A stretch of 33,404 nucleotides of DNA from Deltaproteobacteria bacterium (GTDB taxonomy: Bacteria > Bdellovibrionota_C > UBA2361 > SZUA-149 > JADLFC01): positions 1 to 33,404 of the forward strand of contig JADLFC010000001.1 in NCBI GenBank assembly GCA_020845775.1. The letters run 5' to 3'. Positions within the stretch are counted from its first letter, which is position 1; every line of letters begins with the position of its first letter. The notes under the pieces were generated by a model, which was not told the origin of the DNA, ran no database searches, and saw only the letters and a program-made list of their open reading frames with translations. A program made the translations under genes and the position numbers. Of this stretch, positions 18,264 to 29,741 are shown piece by piece.

Positions 18264-21200
18264 CTATATTCCAAGCCGCGCTCCATCTACCGAGCCAGCC
18301 GCGATCCTGTCAATTAATTCTCTAGCCAGAGCGTGTTGTGGCTCAAAAATGAGAATTTTACTTAGCTGTGCAAGTGCCTTTTCCCTCTGTCCCTGAAAAT
18401 ATAGAGCACCTGCACTAGCATATAAAATAGACACATTTGCCGGGTGAATATCTAGATAAGCGGCAAGAGCAGCCTCAATTTCCCCTACCCTATTAAGTTT
18501 GTACCCAACTTCAACAACTCCGAGAATAGCTCTCATGTTTTCGGGATTTACGTTTAGTGCTTCTCGAAAATAATTCCACCCTTGTTCCAAATTGCCTTCC
18601 CGCACGAAGCATAGCCCGAGTCCCGCCAAGCTAGCATCATTGCGAGAGTGCTTCTCCACAGCAGTTTGAAAATTCCTTTTGGCATCTTCCCATAAACCCT
18701 TTTCGGCTGATATGACCCCTCGCCCGGTCAAAGCACGAGAGGCATAAATCTTATCGTCCATAACCAACGCAAACTCGCGCTCAGCCAAATCAAGCTGGCC
18801 CGCGTGTGCGAGACACTCAGCTTTTAACACTCGCGCCAGTGCCCGCTGAGAAGACGATGCTTCACCAGATATTACTATTCTCTCTGCTCCGGCAATTGCT
18901 CTTTGCAACTCTCTGCTTCCCTTTAACTCCTCGACCTCCCGCAATAGACACTCGATTTCATCCGAATGTCTCAACACGATATTATCCTCCGCCGTTCCCT
19001 TTGCGATACCATTAGTCTCAATTAATGTTTTTAGCTCTAATGCGTTTTCGTGGCCGGGGTCTCTTAGCAGTATGCAATCGACGGTCTTGCTCGCAGCCGC
19101 GTACTTTCCTTGCTTAAAATAACATCCGGCCAGGCAGTAGCGAATTTCTAAATTGTCGGGATTATGCTCCAGACATCGCGCTACTATCCTCTCAAGCTCT
19201 ACCAATTCATTAAGTGGATAGGCGATATTTACGACCTGGAGCAGTATGTTTACATCATCTGGGGCCCTTTCGCTCGCCGCTTTGCACTTTAAAAACGCCT
19301 CGCGCGGCTTCCCGTCATATAGTTCGCATAAACCTAAACCCGCGTAGGCTCTGGCATCATTAGCATCTAGGTCGATTGCTATCTCAAAGGCTCTCCGTGC
19401 AAGTTCGAGATTATTTTCCTCCAGCGCCGCAATCCCTTTTCCCCTATAAGCTCGCCCACACTGAGAGTCTATCGCTATGGCGCGGTCATATCTCTCACGT
19501 GCCCCGATAACATCTTTGCCCCTTAACAAGTTATCCGCCTGCTCGCATAGCGAGGCGGCCTGAGATAAATTCGGCCGCTCGACAATCGCCGTAGCAATCT
19601 TAGACACGGCGCTTTGAGCAGTTTCTGCTGTCCTTTGAACCTCCTCAAGCGACCTCTGGATAGTATGCACTGGATCACTATTGCTCCAGGATGATAGCTG
19701 ATAGCTACTTCGACTACCAGCTCGAGCACAAGATAGCACTCTATCATAAAGGGCTTGAATTGCTTCTGCCGTATTGCTCCACGTGCAATTTGCCACCGAT
19801 TCTCTAAGGCCTCTACGCATCGGTGCGTAGTAAGCTGCAACTATGGCGTTCGCGATGCCGTCAATGTCGTCGGGCTTGCAGTAATAAGCACTCTCGCCGA
19901 AATAGTCTCTGGCCGTTCCGAAATCAGTTACCACGATATTAGTTCCAAGACGCGCAGCCTCCATAGAGGCAATGCCGGGGAGTTCATACCAACTTGCGAG
20001 CGCGTGAACTCTTGCTCCGCTATATGCACTCGCCAGCATCTGTGGCGTCACTCGCTCAAGGAATACTGTCCGCCCCAGTCGCCTAAATCTACGACAAGCT
20101 TCCTCGTAATCTGGCTGATAGGTAAAACCTCCAGTCGCAAATACCAGCGTCAAGTCGCTGTCTTCCAACGCCCTTAAAATACTAAGCTGATTTTTCCTGG
20201 TTTCTAGCCTTCCAACGCACAACACAAAGTCCTTGATGCCGGTCTCACGGAAAAACATATTTCCAGCATCTCCCTCCCCCTCTAAATCGCAACCCCATTT
20301 ACACACGGCGATGTCAGCATGTCGTGGATAATCTCGCTCGATAACCGCCTTTTCGTGCTCACCTGATACTATTAGAGCCTCAGCATTCTCGGCAACCCAG
20401 GCATTGTTGTAACTGCCGCTGGGTTTACTCCTCTGCGCCAACTCAAACAGGGATTCCCACTTATCTCTTTTTTGACCAACTTGAATGTATCCCCTCAAGA
20501 CCTCATAATGGGCAAGCATTTGGTTATAAAACCGCGGCAGGTCCTCATATAGAGCACTCACTATAAACGGCACGCCGTTTTCGCTGGCTTTTTTCGCATA
20601 ACTCTCTGTGACCTGTGGAGTTGCAAAATTATAAAGGTGAACCAAGTCATACTCCTTGGGGTCTTTTCTGCCATCCAAGTCAACATCGACCACTAGTCCC
20701 CGTTTGATTAGCTCTTGGCGAACTCGTTCCATCAACACGGTATCGCCTCCAGGATGCGTTAGTGCGTTACTGCGATTTTGCATTAGGATTTTCATAGCTC
20801 TTCCCCGCTGAGTAAAAGATTGATCCTTTCGGTGCTGATTGTCTCGTTTGCTTTCATCCACCCATTTGCCGTTATCGGCTGCTACCTCTCGGCATAATTG
20901 CAACACCGCGCCCGCTACATTCTCCCAACAATATTGCCTAGCCCATTTGACGGCGTTCTGGCGCAGTTCGTTGTTTAACACTTCGTTCGACACCACGGCC
21001 TCAATTGCAGTAGTTAGCGGATAGCCAGCCGTAACGTGGAACACCGCATCTTGCATTCGAGCAAAGGCCGGGGCTGTCGACGTAACTATTGCTGCCCCGC
21101 ACCCGAGCGCCAACGCTATTGCGCCGGAGGCCTCGAAATAGTTCGAGCGATAATTCATAACTACCGCATCGGCTATACTGAGGTAATCAGTAACTACTGA

Positions 21201-23144
21201 TTCATCTACAAATTCTCCTAGAAAAGTGACTTGTCCACTTAATCCATTGCTGCTTACTAGCTCTCTTAGGTAGCTGCTATAAGCATGGCCGTTAGGATCC
21301 TCCTTATGTGGCTCACCAATAATATAAAGGTGGATATTCGGCAAACGCCTTTTTAAATCAGCTATGGCCTTAATCACCTCATCAATTCCCTTGTGTGCCT
21401 GGATGAATCCAAAGCACACGACTGTGTTTTCACTAAGCGGGACATTGCGACGAATGCGCACCTTATGTCTCGCTTCTTTTGAGACATCCGAAGCAACAGC
21501 TTTCACACCGTGTTCTATAACCACCACATTGGCCGGCTCAGCCCCGTTTGCAATCACTTCGAGCCTATTTTCTGCAGTATGAACTATTACTTTTGACGAA
21601 ACAGCAACTAGCGCGGCGAGTCCGTCGTCAATTGTAAAGGGATTGTGGATGTGCGAAATGGTCTTAACGCCATAGGATTTGAGCTTCAACAGGAACTTTG
21701 CGAATTCCGGTTGTTTAAAAAACCTATAGTGACAGTTTAGGTAGAGTATGTTTATTTTTTCTGCTTTGATTACTTGCTCTAACTCGACAAAGTCCGATGC
21801 GTTTCGCTTCCAGCAACGCTTAACAAAGGGTTCGTCGGGTTTAGTGAGACTATTATCGCTAGTTTCTTCCGCAAGAACCGCATAGCTTACGTCACCAAAG
21901 TGACTTAGCAAGTGAGACGCATACGTAGCTAAGCCGCAACGCTGATTAAAAGTGCTTAGTATCCCAATTTTTGGTTCAAGCAGTTCGACTTGTGGCGCTC
22001 TTTGTCCTGCACTGATGCACTTAGAAGCGGAGCTTGCCGCACGATTGTCTTCCTCGCATTCTCTAATTACGCACTCTATTTCTAGAGCGGTTTTATCCCA
22101 ACTATATTTTGGCCTCATTAGTTCCAGGCTTGCTAGGCTCATTTTTCGCAAAACTTCTGGATTTGCAATGAGCTGGCGAATTTCTCGAACTAGACTATCT
22201 ACCGATATCTCCTCTAACAGTTTTCCGGTAACGCCATCCAAGACTATTTCGCCCATGCCACCGTTTTTGGCGGTTAAAGCCGGAAGACCTGTACTTTGAG
22301 CTTCAGCGACTGCTAGTCCGAAGGATTCAAAGTATATGGATGGGGACACCAATAAGCCAGCCTCACTAAAAGCCTTTGCGATGACTGCTTGTTGCACTGC
22401 GCCATGAAATGTGAGGCCAGAAACGGCCTTTTCAACATCGCTCACATTAAAGTAATCACCTCTCCCCCAAAGAGCAGCTGAGCCATAGATATCCAGTGTC
22501 AGTTGTGGGAAGAATCGTTTAAGTTGGATAAAGGCTTCAAGGAGCAAATGAACGCCCTTATCTATCACTAAGGCTCCGACAAACACTAATCGTTGATAAT
22601 TTCTGGTATCGGCATCGCCTGGTAAAAATGTCTCGAGGTCTACGCCATTTTGCACCACTACAATGTTGTCGGCTCTACACCCGGCATCGACCATGCCTGC
22701 TTTTTGTGCTTCTGAAACGCAGATTACCCTATCGGCAACGTTTCCTATCACTGCGGCTTGCACGCCAAAAGCCGTTGCCGATGGTTCGTGGGTGATAAAC
22801 AGCCGCGATAGCACTTGGGATTTATAGCGGCTCTCTAGCAAAGCTTGCCCTCGACAGGCTACTATTAAGTTAAAATTCGGCAGGGCATTCGGACCACGTT
22901 CAAGAGTCTCAAAAACGCGAGTTGTATCGAAGTTTTCCGAGAAATCTATAAAAGTTACGCCTCTTGCGCTTATAGAAGTTGCTCCATTGACGTTTGAGAG
23001 ATTTGCCGCCACAAATACCTTATTGCCTCGCCTAGCAAGGGCTGTAGCGAGCATTACTGTTGCAGTCTCTGCTCCAGCATTTGCGCCCAAGGGGTCCAAT
23101 GGGTGATCCTTGTGAAATATAACTATTGGAGCTTTAGCTGGCAT
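18264..23144 (-). CDS. Giant protein with three GT4-like glycosyltransferase domains and TPR repeats
   Basis: The 1626-aa frame encodes, in order: GT-B domain 1 (about 1-365) with VQNGVDL, VFVGALVIDKGVHLL and the E-x7-E motif E273/E281; domain 2 (about 390-755) with HGV, CFGFIQAHKGIDEVI and E671, where the second Glu is replaced by A679; domain 3 (about 784-1140) with LCVGRLETRKNQ and E1054/E1062; then TPR repeats (1200-1375 and 1435-1614). The two TPR blocks are colinear duplicates. Such proteins add several sugars in a row, often for surface glycans or flagellin. That role here is an inference: fliD/flaG are about 16 kb away. M784 has GGGGAAG 4 nt upstream and could be an internal start. 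The downstream neighbour is another glycosyltransferase. Confidence 0.88.
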   Translation of the reverse strand: MPAKAPIVIFHKDHPLDPLGANAGAETATVMLATALARRGNKVFVAANLSNVNGATSISARGVTFIDFSENFDTTRVFETLERGPNALPNFNLIVACRGQALLESRYKSQVLSRLFITHEPSATAFGVQAAVIGNVADRVICVSEAQKAGMVDAGCRADNIVVVQNGVDLETFLPGDADTRNYQRLVFVGALVIDKGVHLLLEAFIQLKRFFPQLTLDIYGSAALWGRGDYFNVSDVEKAVSGLTFHGAVQQAVIAKAFSEAGLLVSPSIYFESFGLAVAEAQSTGLPALTAKNGGMGEIVLDGVTGKLLEEISVDSLVREIRQLIANPEVLRKMSLASLELMRPKYSWDKTALEIECVIRECEEDNRAASSASKCISAGQRAPQVELLEPKIGILSTFNQRCGLATYASHLLSHFGDVSYAVLAEETSDNSLTKPDEPFVKRCWKRNASDFVELEQVIKAEKINILYLNCHYRFFKQPEFAKFLLKLKSYGVKTISHIHNPFTIDDGLAALVAVSSKVIVHTAENRLEVIANGAEPANVVVIEHGVKAVASDVSKEARHKVRIRRNVPLSENTVVCFGFIQAHKGIDEVIKAIADLKRRLPNIHLYIIGEPHKEDPNGHAYSSYLRELVSSNGLSGQVTFLGEFVDESVVTDYLSIADAVVMNYRSNYFEASGAIALALGCGAAIVTSTAPAFARMQDAVFHVTAGYPLTTAIEAVVSNEVLNNELRQNAVKWARQYCWENVAGAVLQLCREVAADNGKWVDESKRDNQHRKDQSFTQRGRAMKILMQNRSNALTHPGGDTVLMERVRQELIKRGLVVDVDLDGRKDPKEYDLVHLYNFATPQVTESYAKKASENGVPFIVSALYEDLPRFYNQMLAHYEVLRGYIQVGQKRDKWESLFELAQRSKPSGSYNNAWVAENAEALIVSGEHEKAVIERDYPRHADIAVCKWGCDLEGEGDAGNMFFRETGIKDFVLCVGRLETRKNQLSILRALEDSDLTLVFATGGFTYQPDYEEACRRFRRLGRTVFLERVTPQMLASAYSGARVHALASWYELPGIASMEAARLGTNIVVTDFGTARDYFGESAYYCKPDDIDGIANAIVAAYYAPMRRGLRESVANCTWSNTAEAIQALYDRVLSCARAGSRSSYQLSSWSNSDPVHTIQRSLEEVQRTAETAQSAVSKIATAIVERPNLSQAASLCEQADNLLRGKDVIGARERYDRAIAIDSQCGRAYRGKGIAALEENNLELARRAFEIAIDLDANDARAYAGLGLCELYDGKPREAFLKCKAASERAPDDVNILLQVVNIAYPLNELVELERIVARCLEHNPDNLEIRYCLAGCYFKQGKYAAASKTVDCILLRDPGHENALELKTLIETNGIAKGTAEDNIVLRHSDEIECLLREVEELKGSRELQRAIAGAERIVISGEASSSQRALARVLKAECLAHAGQLDLAEREFALVMDDKIYASRALTGRGVISAEKGLWEDAKRNFQTAVEKHSRNDASLAGLGLCFVREGNLEQGWNYFREALNVNPENMRAILGVVEVGYKLNRVGEIEAALAAYLDIHPANVSILYASAGALYFQGQREKALAQLSKILIFEPQHALARELIDRIAAGSVDGARLGI

Positions 23145-23308: not shown

Positions 23309-24163
23309 ATGACGGAGGAAAGGTCGCTTGTATTGATATCTGATGCCGAGGTTGGCGACTATGCTGTCTGCCCCGAAAGCTGGCGACTAAAGTACGTCGA
23401 TAAAAAGTTGTTTAGGCGGACTGAGCGCAGTGCCACCACACAGAAACAGCGCAGTAATTGGGTTAAGGTTCAGGATTTATCCACACAGCTAAAGCGGTAT
23501 GCCGGCATTGCCTATGGTCTTTTAGTCATATTTGTCTTCGTCGTTTTTTTACTAGATCGGCACAATGAGCTGCAAGAGGACAGTATAATATACAAGGCTA
23601 GTAACTTATGGAGCGAATCGAATGGTCATCATTGGGATAGAATATATATTATCATTATTATTCTTGGAGTAATAATTTTTGTATGGGATCTATTCGATCG
23701 CAAAAGCAAAGTCTCAAAAAAAGAGGCGGGAATTGATGAAAACGCTAGAGCCTTAGCAGTAAAAGACAGCTCGCTTATTCCGGAACGACAATATTTGTCT
23801 GAAGAAAATGGATTATCGAGCAAACCCGATGCTGTTTATAAAATAGATAAGCACATTATCCCTGTAGATCGATACACCAGTACGAACAAGGTGCGAGACA
23901 GACATGTCCTTAGGCTACTACTTCACATGCGCCTCATAGGAGACGTCGATGGGATTGAGCCACCTTATGGATTATTGATTATGGGCCCCAAGGCGAGGAC
24001 GGTTCGCATCGAAAGCAACGACGAGCGCCGAAGGTGGCTAGATTCGGTAATTGCCGAGATGAGAGCAATTATCGACGGAGTTCCTGCCGAACCCTTGCCA
24101 TCAGAAGTGAAGTGCCTTCATTGCGACGTTAAGAGCATCTGCAAATTTCGCTTTAGCAAGTAA
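23309..24163 (+). CDS. Membrane-inserted Cas4/RecB-like PD-(D/E)XK family protein, probably inactive
   Basis: The 284-aa protein starts like Cas4 (LISDAEVGDYAVCPESWRLK, C21) and ends like it (P-x-KCLHCDVKSIC, with C269, C272, C278). One N-terminal Cys plus C-x2-C-x5-C is the Fe-S pattern of Cas4. Between them, two transmembrane segments are inserted (about 64-83 and 112-128). The nuclease core follows: D174 (SKPDAVY) fits motif II, but motif III reads PVDRY (D187, Y189) in place of E-x-K, and the QLxxY motif appears as R202...H206. I infer a membrane-anchored, Fe-S-bearing protein that has probably lost nuclease activity. No cas genes or repeats are nearby. It converges with the GspE-like/receiver gene, with 28 bp between stops. 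The ATG has only a weak ribosome-binding site. Confidence 0.75.
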   Translation: MTEERSLVLISDAEVGDYAVCPESWRLKYVDKKLFRRTERSATTQKQRSNWVKVQDLSTQLKRYAGIAYGLLVIFVFVVFLLDRHNELQEDSIIYKASNLWSESNGHHWDRIYIIIIILGVIIFVWDLFDRKSKVSKKEAGIDENARALAVKDSSLIPERQYLSEENGLSSKPDAVYKIDKHIIPVDRYTSTNKVRDRHVLRLLLHMRLIGDVDGIEPPYGLLIMGPKARTVRIESNDERRRWLDSVIAEMRAIIDGVPAEPLPSEVKCLHCDVKSICKFRFSK

Positions 24164-24191: not shown

Positions 24192-25841
24192 TCACTTGCT
24201 TAGTAGTTTTTGGACTCGTTTTAGCAGCACCTTGCGATTGACGGTTTTTGAGCAATAATCGTCGGCACCAACTTCAAGCAAATTGCATTCCGCATCGGAA
24301 CCACCCACTGCGGTTAATATCAGAACTGGAAGGCGTTTTAGTTTTTCTGAAGCGCGCAGCTCTTTTACAAACTGTTCGCCATTCATGATTGGCATCATGA
24401 GATCGCATACGACGATGTCTACGGGCTTAAAATCCAGTATCTCGAGGGCCTCTTTGCCGTTAGTGGCCTGTAGAATTTCATACTGTTCTTTTTGAAAAAC
24501 TATTTTTAGAATTTCCATCTGATCGCGATCGTCCTCGACGAGGAGAACGCGCCGCGAACCCTTTGTCGAAGCAGCAGAATCGACAAAAAACTCATCTCCC
24601 ACTGAGCTTAGGGCCGCATTAATTTCTCTATCTATAGGGGTCTCATCGCTATCCGATTTACTGCTCGCTATAGAGGCTACAAATGCGCGGCTAATATCGG
24701 CGACGACCCCAAATAGTTCTTCAAAACTCGTATGCCCATGATATACCTTATCCAGGCCATCTTCCATTAGGCTCCTGGCGCCCTTGCGATAGGCAATTTG
24801 CGTAATATCTGTAATGGACTTGTCTTCACGCATCTTTTGGCGCATCTGTTCGTCTACATATACAAGGCTATCGAGGCCAATGGTGCCCTTATACGCTAGT
24901 TCCCCACACTCGCTGCAACCTCGTCCAAAGAGATACGTCCTGTTTTTAGCAGGCCTAATTGCCATAGGAAGTCGCTCTAATAGTTTTGGATCTGCCGCAG
25001 ACGAGCGGGCGCAGGCATGACAGACCCGGCGAACGCGCTTATGCACGTAGGCCAGCCTAAGAGCCGAAAAATACTGCTGCTTCAGATCACGCGAATCGCC
25101 CAGTAAACCAGCGAAGTTAAAAATCATCTCGACAGGATCTTGCGAGGCCAGGCTAACTACGACTAAGTTCCTAGTCGCCTTTTCTAAAGCATCTACTGCC
25201 TTGGTAAAAGAATGAACATTGTGAAACAATAAAGCATCAGGCCTGCACGCCAAAGTTCTTGCGCCTGCACTCACAGCAGCAGATCGTTCACCATCACTGA
25301 CTAAGACAATACCGGTTGCTTGACTTAGGCCTTGCTCAAAAAACTCCTTATTCCGCTCGCTAACTCCGTCCAGCGTAAGAGACATTCCGTGCGGGTGCTC
25401 GAGTACTCTAAGCTTTAGCACATCAACTTCTTCGCCATCTTGCGCCTGGCTATCAATTGCAATATCGATAAGCAATTTTCCATACTGCTTGTTGTCAATA
25501 GCTAATCGCTTAGACCTGTTTTGGTTCGTGCACCAAAGTACGTCTCCAGGATCCGGCCAATAAACGGCGCGAGCTAGCACCACATCTCTCAGCAAGGGAA
25601 AAAATTCAGTACTAACTTTAAAAACATCGATTGGAGAAGAATCCCTATTGGTTCTAAAACAAACGGACTTGTAAAATTGAATCTCAAGTGCTTCGGTGCT
25701 GTGTGCAAAAACTACCTCTTTTGCACTATTCGCAACGAGTCTTTGAAGTAGCCCTTCAAAACATTTTACGGCCTGAAGCGAGTCAGCATAAAAACGCGAT
25801 AGCCGTAAAGAAGCAGTGCCAGTATCCGCCTTTGATCCCAT
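24192..25841 (-). CDS. GspE/PilB-like pseudo-ATPase fused to a response-regulator receiver domain
   Basis: The 549-aa protein has two parts. Residues ~20-390 follow the type II/IV secretion ATPase plan: GMSLTLDG then GIVLVSDGERSAAVSAGA (177-194), where GspE has GxxGSGKT. PDALLFHNVHS (201-211) stands where Walker B should be, and SLASQD (230-235) where the His box STLHTND should be. The tetracysteine zinc motif is kept (C274, C277, C309, C312), with YKGTIGLDSLVYVDEQMR and the end ARSLMEDGLDKV typical of GspE. All three nucleotide motifs are lost and the gap between the Walker positions is far shorter than normal. Residues 431-548 are a receiver domain with D437/D438, phospho-acceptor D480, T510 and K532, all intact. 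The likely role is phosphorylation-dependent regulation or scaffolding, not ATP-driven transport. Confidence 0.82.
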   Translation of the reverse strand: MGSKADTGTASLRLSRFYADSLQAVKCFEGLLQRLVANSAKEVVFAHSTEALEIQFYKSVCFRTNRDSSPIDVFKVSTEFFPLLRDVVLARAVYWPDPGDVLWCTNQNRSKRLAIDNKQYGKLLIDIAIDSQAQDGEEVDVLKLRVLEHPHGMSLTLDGVSERNKEFFEQGLSQATGIVLVSDGERSAAVSAGARTLACRPDALLFHNVHSFTKAVDALEKATRNLVVVSLASQDPVEMIFNFAGLLGDSRDLKQQYFSALRLAYVHKRVRRVCHACARSSAADPKLLERLPMAIRPAKNRTYLFGRGCSECGELAYKGTIGLDSLVYVDEQMRQKMREDKSITDITQIAYRKGARSLMEDGLDKVYHGHTSFEELFGVVADISRAFVASIASSKSDSDETPIDREINAALSSVGDEFFVDSAASTKGSRRVLLVEDDRDQMEILKIVFQKEQYEILQATNGKEALEILDFKPVDIVVCDLMMPIMNGEQFVKELRASEKLKRLPVLILTAVGGSDAECNLLEVGADDYCSKTVNRKVLLKRVQKLLSK

Positions 25842-29354: not shown

Positions 29355-29428
29355 TGGCTCGCCCACAAGGACTCGAACCTCAATTTCCAGAGTCAGAATC
29401 TGGCGTGCTACCATTACACCATGGGCGA
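29355..29428 (-). tRNA. tRNA-Gln (anticodon CUG)
   Basis: The acceptor stem TCGCCCA/TGGGCGA pairs perfectly, with discriminator G and an encoded CCA (29357-29355). The anticodon stem CCAGA/TCTGG encloses the loop TTCTGAC, so the anticodon is CUG. The T-arm GGTTCGAGTCC is normal. The U1-A72 pair and G73 fit glutamine identity. Confidence 0.95.
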
Positions 29429-29666: not shown

Positions 29667-29741
29667 GGCCCCTTCGTCTAGCGGTTAGGACAGCGGCCTC
29701 TCACGCCGCAAGCACGGGTTCGATTCCCGTAGGGGTCACCA
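29667..29741 (+). tRNA. tRNA-Glu (anticodon CUC)
   Basis: The acceptor stem GGCCCCT/AGGGGTC has one G-U pair, with discriminator A and an encoded CCA. The anticodon stem GCGGC/GCCGC encloses CTCTCAC, so the anticodon is CUC, which reads GAG only. The D-arm (TCGTCTAGCGGTTAGGACA) and T-arm (CGGGTTCGATTCCCG) are typical of tRNA-Glu. The gene ends 25 bp before the next ORF. Confidence 0.96.

Follow-up and report, generated by a model that had tools for sequence, protein, structure and literature searches.

Cas4 proteins (CAS-Cas4, pfam01930; structures 8d3l and SSO0001, 4ic1) combine a PD-(D/E)xK fold with a motif-I His, a QxxxY motif and four cysteines arranged as C + CxxC..C. They are soluble, consist of one chain, belong to the cas1/cas2 adaptation module and keep their catalytic residues. 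In the survey of Hudaiberdiev et al. (2017, PMC5704561), the four cysteines were present in all Cas4 and the catalytic motifs were conserved, suggesting that every Cas4 is active; the same survey reported Cas4 genes outside cas loci (solo-Cas4), found in many Chloroflexi, and cited an inactivated Cas4-like protein, the nucleocapsid protein of TTV1. The word "transmembrane" does not occur in its main text, and our search for membrane or transmembrane Cas4 gave nothing relevant in the open-access literature, subscription papers being mostly outside its coverage. Here we describe a gene located in a 33,404-nucleotide stretch of a Deltaproteobacteria bacterium (the window, which is a whole contig, JADLFC010000001.1, of a 2.57-Mb assembly). 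Cas4 is the closest sequence and fold match of the family to which this gene belongs, but the family differs from it in having a transmembrane (TM) hairpin, in being usually made of two chains elsewhere, in lacking a cas context and, in the order of the window, in having lost catalysis. The gene appears to be the fused, catalytically dead member of a widespread, mostly two-protein membrane Cas4 family. With a probability of roughly two in three, we consider this family to be tethered to the membrane and the window copy to act as a non-cutting iron-sulfur (Fe-S) scaffold.

The open reading frame (ORF) at 23309-24163 (+), whose frame is open, has the following features; N protein refers to the shorter of the two proteins found in split relatives, and C protein to the other.

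23309..24163 (+): membrane Cas4-like gene, 284 amino acids, fused one-chain form, catalytically degenerate
23369..23371 (+): C21, putative first Fe-S cysteine, which sits in the separate N protein of split relatives (42/42 aligned copies)
23450..23452 (+): R48 at the position of the Cas4/RecB motif-I His (alignment to Cas4 8d3l; phylum alignment)
23498..23554 (+): TM helix 1 (TM1), residues 64-82, extending the motif-I helix (hydropathy; model helix 40-91, which holds the motif-I position and continues into TM1)
23642..23698 (+): TM helix 2 (TM2), residues 112-130, followed by a basic flank of cytoplasmic type (hydropathy; included in model helix 108-139)
23828..23830 (+): D174, motif-II Asp, kept (phylum alignment)
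23867..23875 (+): D187-R188-Y189 at the (D/E)xK position, Lys replaced by Tyr (alignment, codons)
23888..23902 (+): K194..D197-R198, family motif in both active and dead copies (alignment)
23912..23926 (+): R202...H206 at the Cas4 QxxxY motif, both residues gone (alignment)
24113..24142 (+): C269-x2-C272-x5-C278, the remaining three putative Fe-S cysteines (42/42 aligned copies)

The protein matched the Pfam profiles Cas_Cas4 (E=3.4e-6) and PDDEXK_1 (E=6.4e-5), both passing the cut-off, and the PADLOC Cas4 profile (E=1.3e-11). The AlphaFold model, obtained with 31 sequences, had a mean predicted local distance difference test score (pLDDT) of 84, with core blocks mostly at 91-98, and a predicted template modeling score of 0.71. 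When this model was compared to the PDB with Foldseek, the top match was the type I-C Cas4 8d3l_J (E=7.4e-6, probability 1.00), and SSO0001, MGME1, Dna2, AdnAB and the Argonaute-associated Cas4 ACE1 followed at lower rank; probability was 1.00 to Cas4, MGME1, Dna2 and AdnAB. The Cas4/RecB-like PD-(D/E)XK fold, which an earlier note had proposed from the letters of the DNA, is therefore borne out by structure prediction. The nuclease domains of MGME1, Dna2 and AdnAB share the RecB-like fold but have no membrane anchors inside the domain, and MGME1 lacks an Fe-S module. A sequence search of the PDB with the window protein alone as query did not match Cas4; a search with the family profile did find Cas4 8d3l. 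The alignment of the profile of intact relatives to 8d3l consisted of two parts and included the motif-I "G..LH"; the TM hairpin accordingly lies after motif I and before motif II.

The two hydrophobic segments have mean Kyte-Doolittle values of 2.6 (residues 64-82) and 2.5 (residues 112-130). The loop between them is acidic (3 K/R, 6 D/E), the flanks are basic (3/1 and 5/3), and K/R outnumber D/E after TM2 in most copies of the family. From this charge distribution the N and C parts are both predicted to be cytoplasmic, a topology that fits an Fe-S domain.

Of the catalytic set formed by H, D, E, K and QxxxY, the window protein has R48, D174, D187, Y189, R202 and H206, that is, it carries the losses H48R, K189Y, Q202R and Y206H with respect to intact relatives. 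The codons (C21, C269, C272 and C278 all TGC; D174 and D187 GAT; Y189 TAC; R202 AGG; H206 CAC) agree with the cysteine set and with the core residues given in the earlier note, to which the change of the motif-I His at position 48 has to be added. The lost residues predict the absence of nuclease activity, and the four kept cysteines predict an Fe-S cluster.

The gene was found in 41 of the 46 genomes of the window's phylum (one class), and in 19/20 of the high-quality ones; it is thus near-core in this phylum, either fused or split. The alignment comprised 42 copies from 41 genomes. The four cysteines and the two hydrophobic segments are shared by 42/42 aligned copies, a recurrence which indicates that they are more than a chance feature of one sequence. 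All 28 copies outside the order of the window are complete, with C21, His48, Asp174, Glu187, Lys189, Gln202, Tyr206 and the three C-terminal cysteines. In the order of the window, the four cysteines are kept in 13/13 copies, and His48, present in 28/28 copies outside the order, is Arg in 13/13. In these same copies Glu187 is mostly Asp, Gln202 is absent from 10/13, and Lys189 is lost in 6/13, each time to a different residue (Tyr in the window protein, and Arg, Leu, Asn, Val and Glu). One copy of the order (G008) is also without Asp174, having PY in place of PD. Homologues with E-x-K have it at the unshifted position. The broken active site of the window protein, claimed by the earlier note, is therefore real, but a pseudo-nuclease is not what the family as a whole is: since relatives outside the order are intact by sequence, this is a derived state of one order. 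A second, split copy in one genome (L089:8062-8798 in G005) keeps every catalytic residue, while the main copy of that genome is dead. This second copy resembles the form found on plasmids of Planctomycetota.

In a tree built without the active-site columns, the 13 copies of the order formed a single branch with support 100/100, and on this tree parsimony required a minimum of one change for His, five for Lys and three for Gln. We read this pattern as a single inactivation early on, after which the other catalytic residues drifted while fold, cysteines and anchors were kept. The scaffold outlived at least five changes at the catalytic lysine, and so part of its function is independent of DNA cutting. 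Since synonymous divergence (dS) is saturated within the H48R clade, ratios to nonsynonymous divergence (dN) are poorly computable there; in the closest pair (G009/G012) dN was 0.078, and 0.048 in the core. Low dN with saturated dS is as expected under purifying selection. Moreover, 26 positions, K194, D197 and R198 included, are conserved alike in the intact group and in the order, and the order also has new conserved positions of its own, which are weakly enriched in the TM hairpin (7/13, p=0.04 in a post hoc test).

These data bear on two other explanations of the eroded active site. That the gene is a decaying pseudogene would account for the erosion itself and for the low Cas4 scores of some members of the order (L005), but the frames are open, the four cysteines persist in 13/13 copies, the TM segments are retained, dN lies far under the saturated dS and order-specific conserved positions have appeared, so that we regard decay as very unlikely. 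It is less implausible, yet still improbable, that the window protein is a nuclease in which D174 and D187 bind metal and K194, R188 or R48 stands in for the lysine. Migration of the lysine is known in the PD-(D/E)XK superfamily, both Asp residues are kept, and seven relatives in the order have D-x-K or E-x-K. On the other hand, almost every intact member has K194 as well, which is therefore no compensatory substitute, H48, Q202 and Y206 are gone as well, and in G008 the motif-II Asp itself is lost.

The earlier note had regarded the TM helices as an insertion into a normal Cas4. This view has to be replaced, because the common form consists of two proteins with one TM helix each, which the window gene joins. 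In the phylum of the window, 20/42 copies are encoded by two ORFs instead of one, G008 being uncertain because both of its ORFs lie at contig ends. The N protein, of about 83-123 amino acids, carries C21, His48 and TM1; the C protein carries TM2, the PD-(D/E)xK core and the three cysteines. In several loci (L069, L072, L073, L079 and L089) the two genes overlap by ATGA. The same layout, with a 4-base overlap, is present on the Planctomycetota plasmids PALBO2 and pSINAC03, where N is annotated as "hypothetical protein" and C as "PD-(D/E)XK nuclease family protein", and the arrangement also occurs in genomes of further phyla. Within the phylum of the window, the split or fused state changed seven times by parsimony.

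In another large phylum, among 301 genomes, the TM-bearing C protein was found in 87 and N in 83: both were present in 79 genomes, C only in 8, N only in 4 and neither in 210 (Fisher p=1e-57, not corrected for relatedness; the cut-off for the C protein, about 1e-21, was chosen by us). One of the genomes counted as C only (G412) in fact contains a natural fusion of N and C, a 353-amino-acid frame (L174:2853-3914) in which the motif-II Asp is Ala. Natural one-chain fusions are represented by the window gene, by family f13 and, independently and in the other phylum, by that of G412. In some loci a gene lies between N and C (HEAT-like by eye in L157; L,D-transpeptidase in L162 and L171, identified with Pfam for L162), and eight genomes have the N and C genes at unlinked sites or distributed over different contigs. 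On single contigs they can be as far apart as 2.8 Mb (G597, 3.3-Mb contig) and 0.89 Mb (G670), with both proteins intact. N and C are thus distinct proteins, retained together. Because fusions arose in several lineages, the two are likely to work together, and fusion and co-occurrence suggest that the chains assemble.

The widespread form would accordingly be a two-protein nuclease, to which the short N protein would supply the first cysteine, the motif-I helix and TM1, and the C protein TM2, the PD-(D/E)xK core and three cysteines; the two chains together may form a single nuclease domain with a bound Fe-S cluster, located on the inner, cytoplasmic side of the membrane. In the common ancestor of the window's order, Arg would have taken the place of the motif-I His that binds metal. 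Selection for catalysis presumably ended with this change and Lys, Glu, Gln and Tyr disappeared bit by bit, whereas selection probably continued to act on the Fe-S cysteines, the TM hairpin and the fold. The window copy is most likely a non-cutting membrane Fe-S scaffold, and probably still binds DNA or a partner protein. The fold, the conservation pattern, the two-gene organisation and the co-occurrence were computed. The weakest step of the explanation is the cellular role, for which membrane DNA processing is a first guess and a non-cutting scaffold our reading for the order.

The C proteins probably include some of the solo-Cas4 reported for Chloroflexi, with which the family shares a location outside cas loci (PMC5704561); here, however, the four cysteines are divided three to one between two proteins, and one order carries inactivated copies. 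The TTV1 nucleocapsid protein likewise reuses an inactivated Cas4-like nuclease fold without catalysis, but as a structural protein of an archaeal virus and not as a conserved bacterial membrane protein. In phage and viral collections no relatives of the family were found at the sensitivity used.

As the earlier note had stated, neither a cas gene among the ORFs around the gene nor a CRISPR (clustered regularly interspaced short palindromic repeats) array was reported in the window, and the gene is not beside cas1 or cas2. The sole Cas1 of the host genome belongs to a type I-E operon on another contig (C72:1-6000, L107), in which Cse1, Cas5 and Cas1 were confirmed by Pfam and which is without Cas4; a search of the host genome gave no Cas4 match besides the window gene. 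To our knowledge, type I-E systems use no Cas4. The matches to Cas4 profiles and the presence of a cas operon in the genome might suggest an ordinary CRISPR-associated Cas4, but the type and location of that operon, the membrane anchors, the lack of cas genes around the window gene and the score against the NCBIfam cas4 equivalog TIGR00372 (42.8 bits, under the cut-off of 65) leave this explanation with a negligible probability.

In genomes from outside the order, an uncharacterised gene for about 170 amino acids (cluster 2; L054:1644-2168) usually precedes the Cas4-like gene, and a second uncharacterised gene is oriented divergently. The former is present in 43/46 genomes of the phylum, including genomes without the Cas4-like gene, and in the genome of the window it is unlinked (C167:34949-35410, L106). 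Its product gave no Pfam match above cut-off and its model no significant fold match; lacking matches and persisting where the Cas4-like gene is missing, it gives no indication of function. The divergent neighbor (L054:649-1344, -) encodes an RG-rich N-terminus and a conserved domain without Pfam match, and was seen in 21 loci. In the order, the neighbors are mostly glycosyltransferase-like genes. The window itself contains, at 18264-23144 (-), a gene for a 1626-amino-acid protein in which TPR repeats and several glycosyltransferase domains can be seen by eye; most members of the order have a relative of it next to the Cas4-like gene.

Elsewhere, the N/C pair lies behind an M50 protease gene (L139, by Pfam; L141, by eye), and in one locus (L140:37-2896, G352) two ComEA-type helix-hairpin-helix genes and a ComEC-like metallo-beta-lactamase gene precede the membrane Cas4 pair. 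The latter arrangement suggests that the family might serve DNA uptake or membrane defence by trimming incoming DNA, which the dead copies of the order would only bind; this is compatible with the scaffold explanation. In agreement with it, DNA methylase genes occur in the vicinity of the pairs on Planctomycetota plasmids, joined on PALBO2 by a UmuDC pair, and in Synechococcus elongatus a Cas4-like nuclease restricts the transfer or the maintenance of plasmid RSF1010 (PMC10653904). Nevertheless, the ComEA locus is a single one, the other large phylum has the M50 protease gene upstream, or N and C separated by L,D-transpeptidase or HEAT-like genes, and the linked gene in the window's phylum is uncharacterised; we therefore hold a role in uptake or defence as a possibility with somewhat less than even chances.

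Some observations weigh against the window copy being part of a conserved, non-cutting scaffold. The gene is missing from 5/46 genomes of the phylum (one among the 20 of high quality) and is therefore not essential, and its neighbors indicate no single pathway. Some members of the order keep D, D/E and K, being without only His and parts of QxxxY, and may still be weakly active; a Lys might have been recruited from elsewhere, and the Fe-S cluster could be absent.

On balance, we think it fairly probable that several phyla possess a Cas4-type Fe-S domain built from two membrane proteins sharing cluster and active site, the first cysteine and the motif-I His coming from one chain and the rest from the other, and that one order converted it to a non-catalytic membrane Fe-S scaffold or sensor. 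If so, a two-protein membrane Cas4 with a divided Fe-S/metal site would be an unusual construction for an Fe-S enzyme, and many solo genes annotated as "Dna2/Cas4" or "PD-(D/E)XK family" would gain a partner that explains their missing first cysteine. The order of the window represents a natural experiment, and the plasmid-borne pairs of cultured Planctomycetota allow the two-protein idea to be tested.

As for the rest of the window, the 549-amino-acid product of the gene at 24192-25841 (-) combines a T2SSE (PilB/GspE-type) region with a response-regulator receiver domain at its C-terminus, and Rfam identified tRNA genes at 29358-29428 (-) and 29667-29738 (+).
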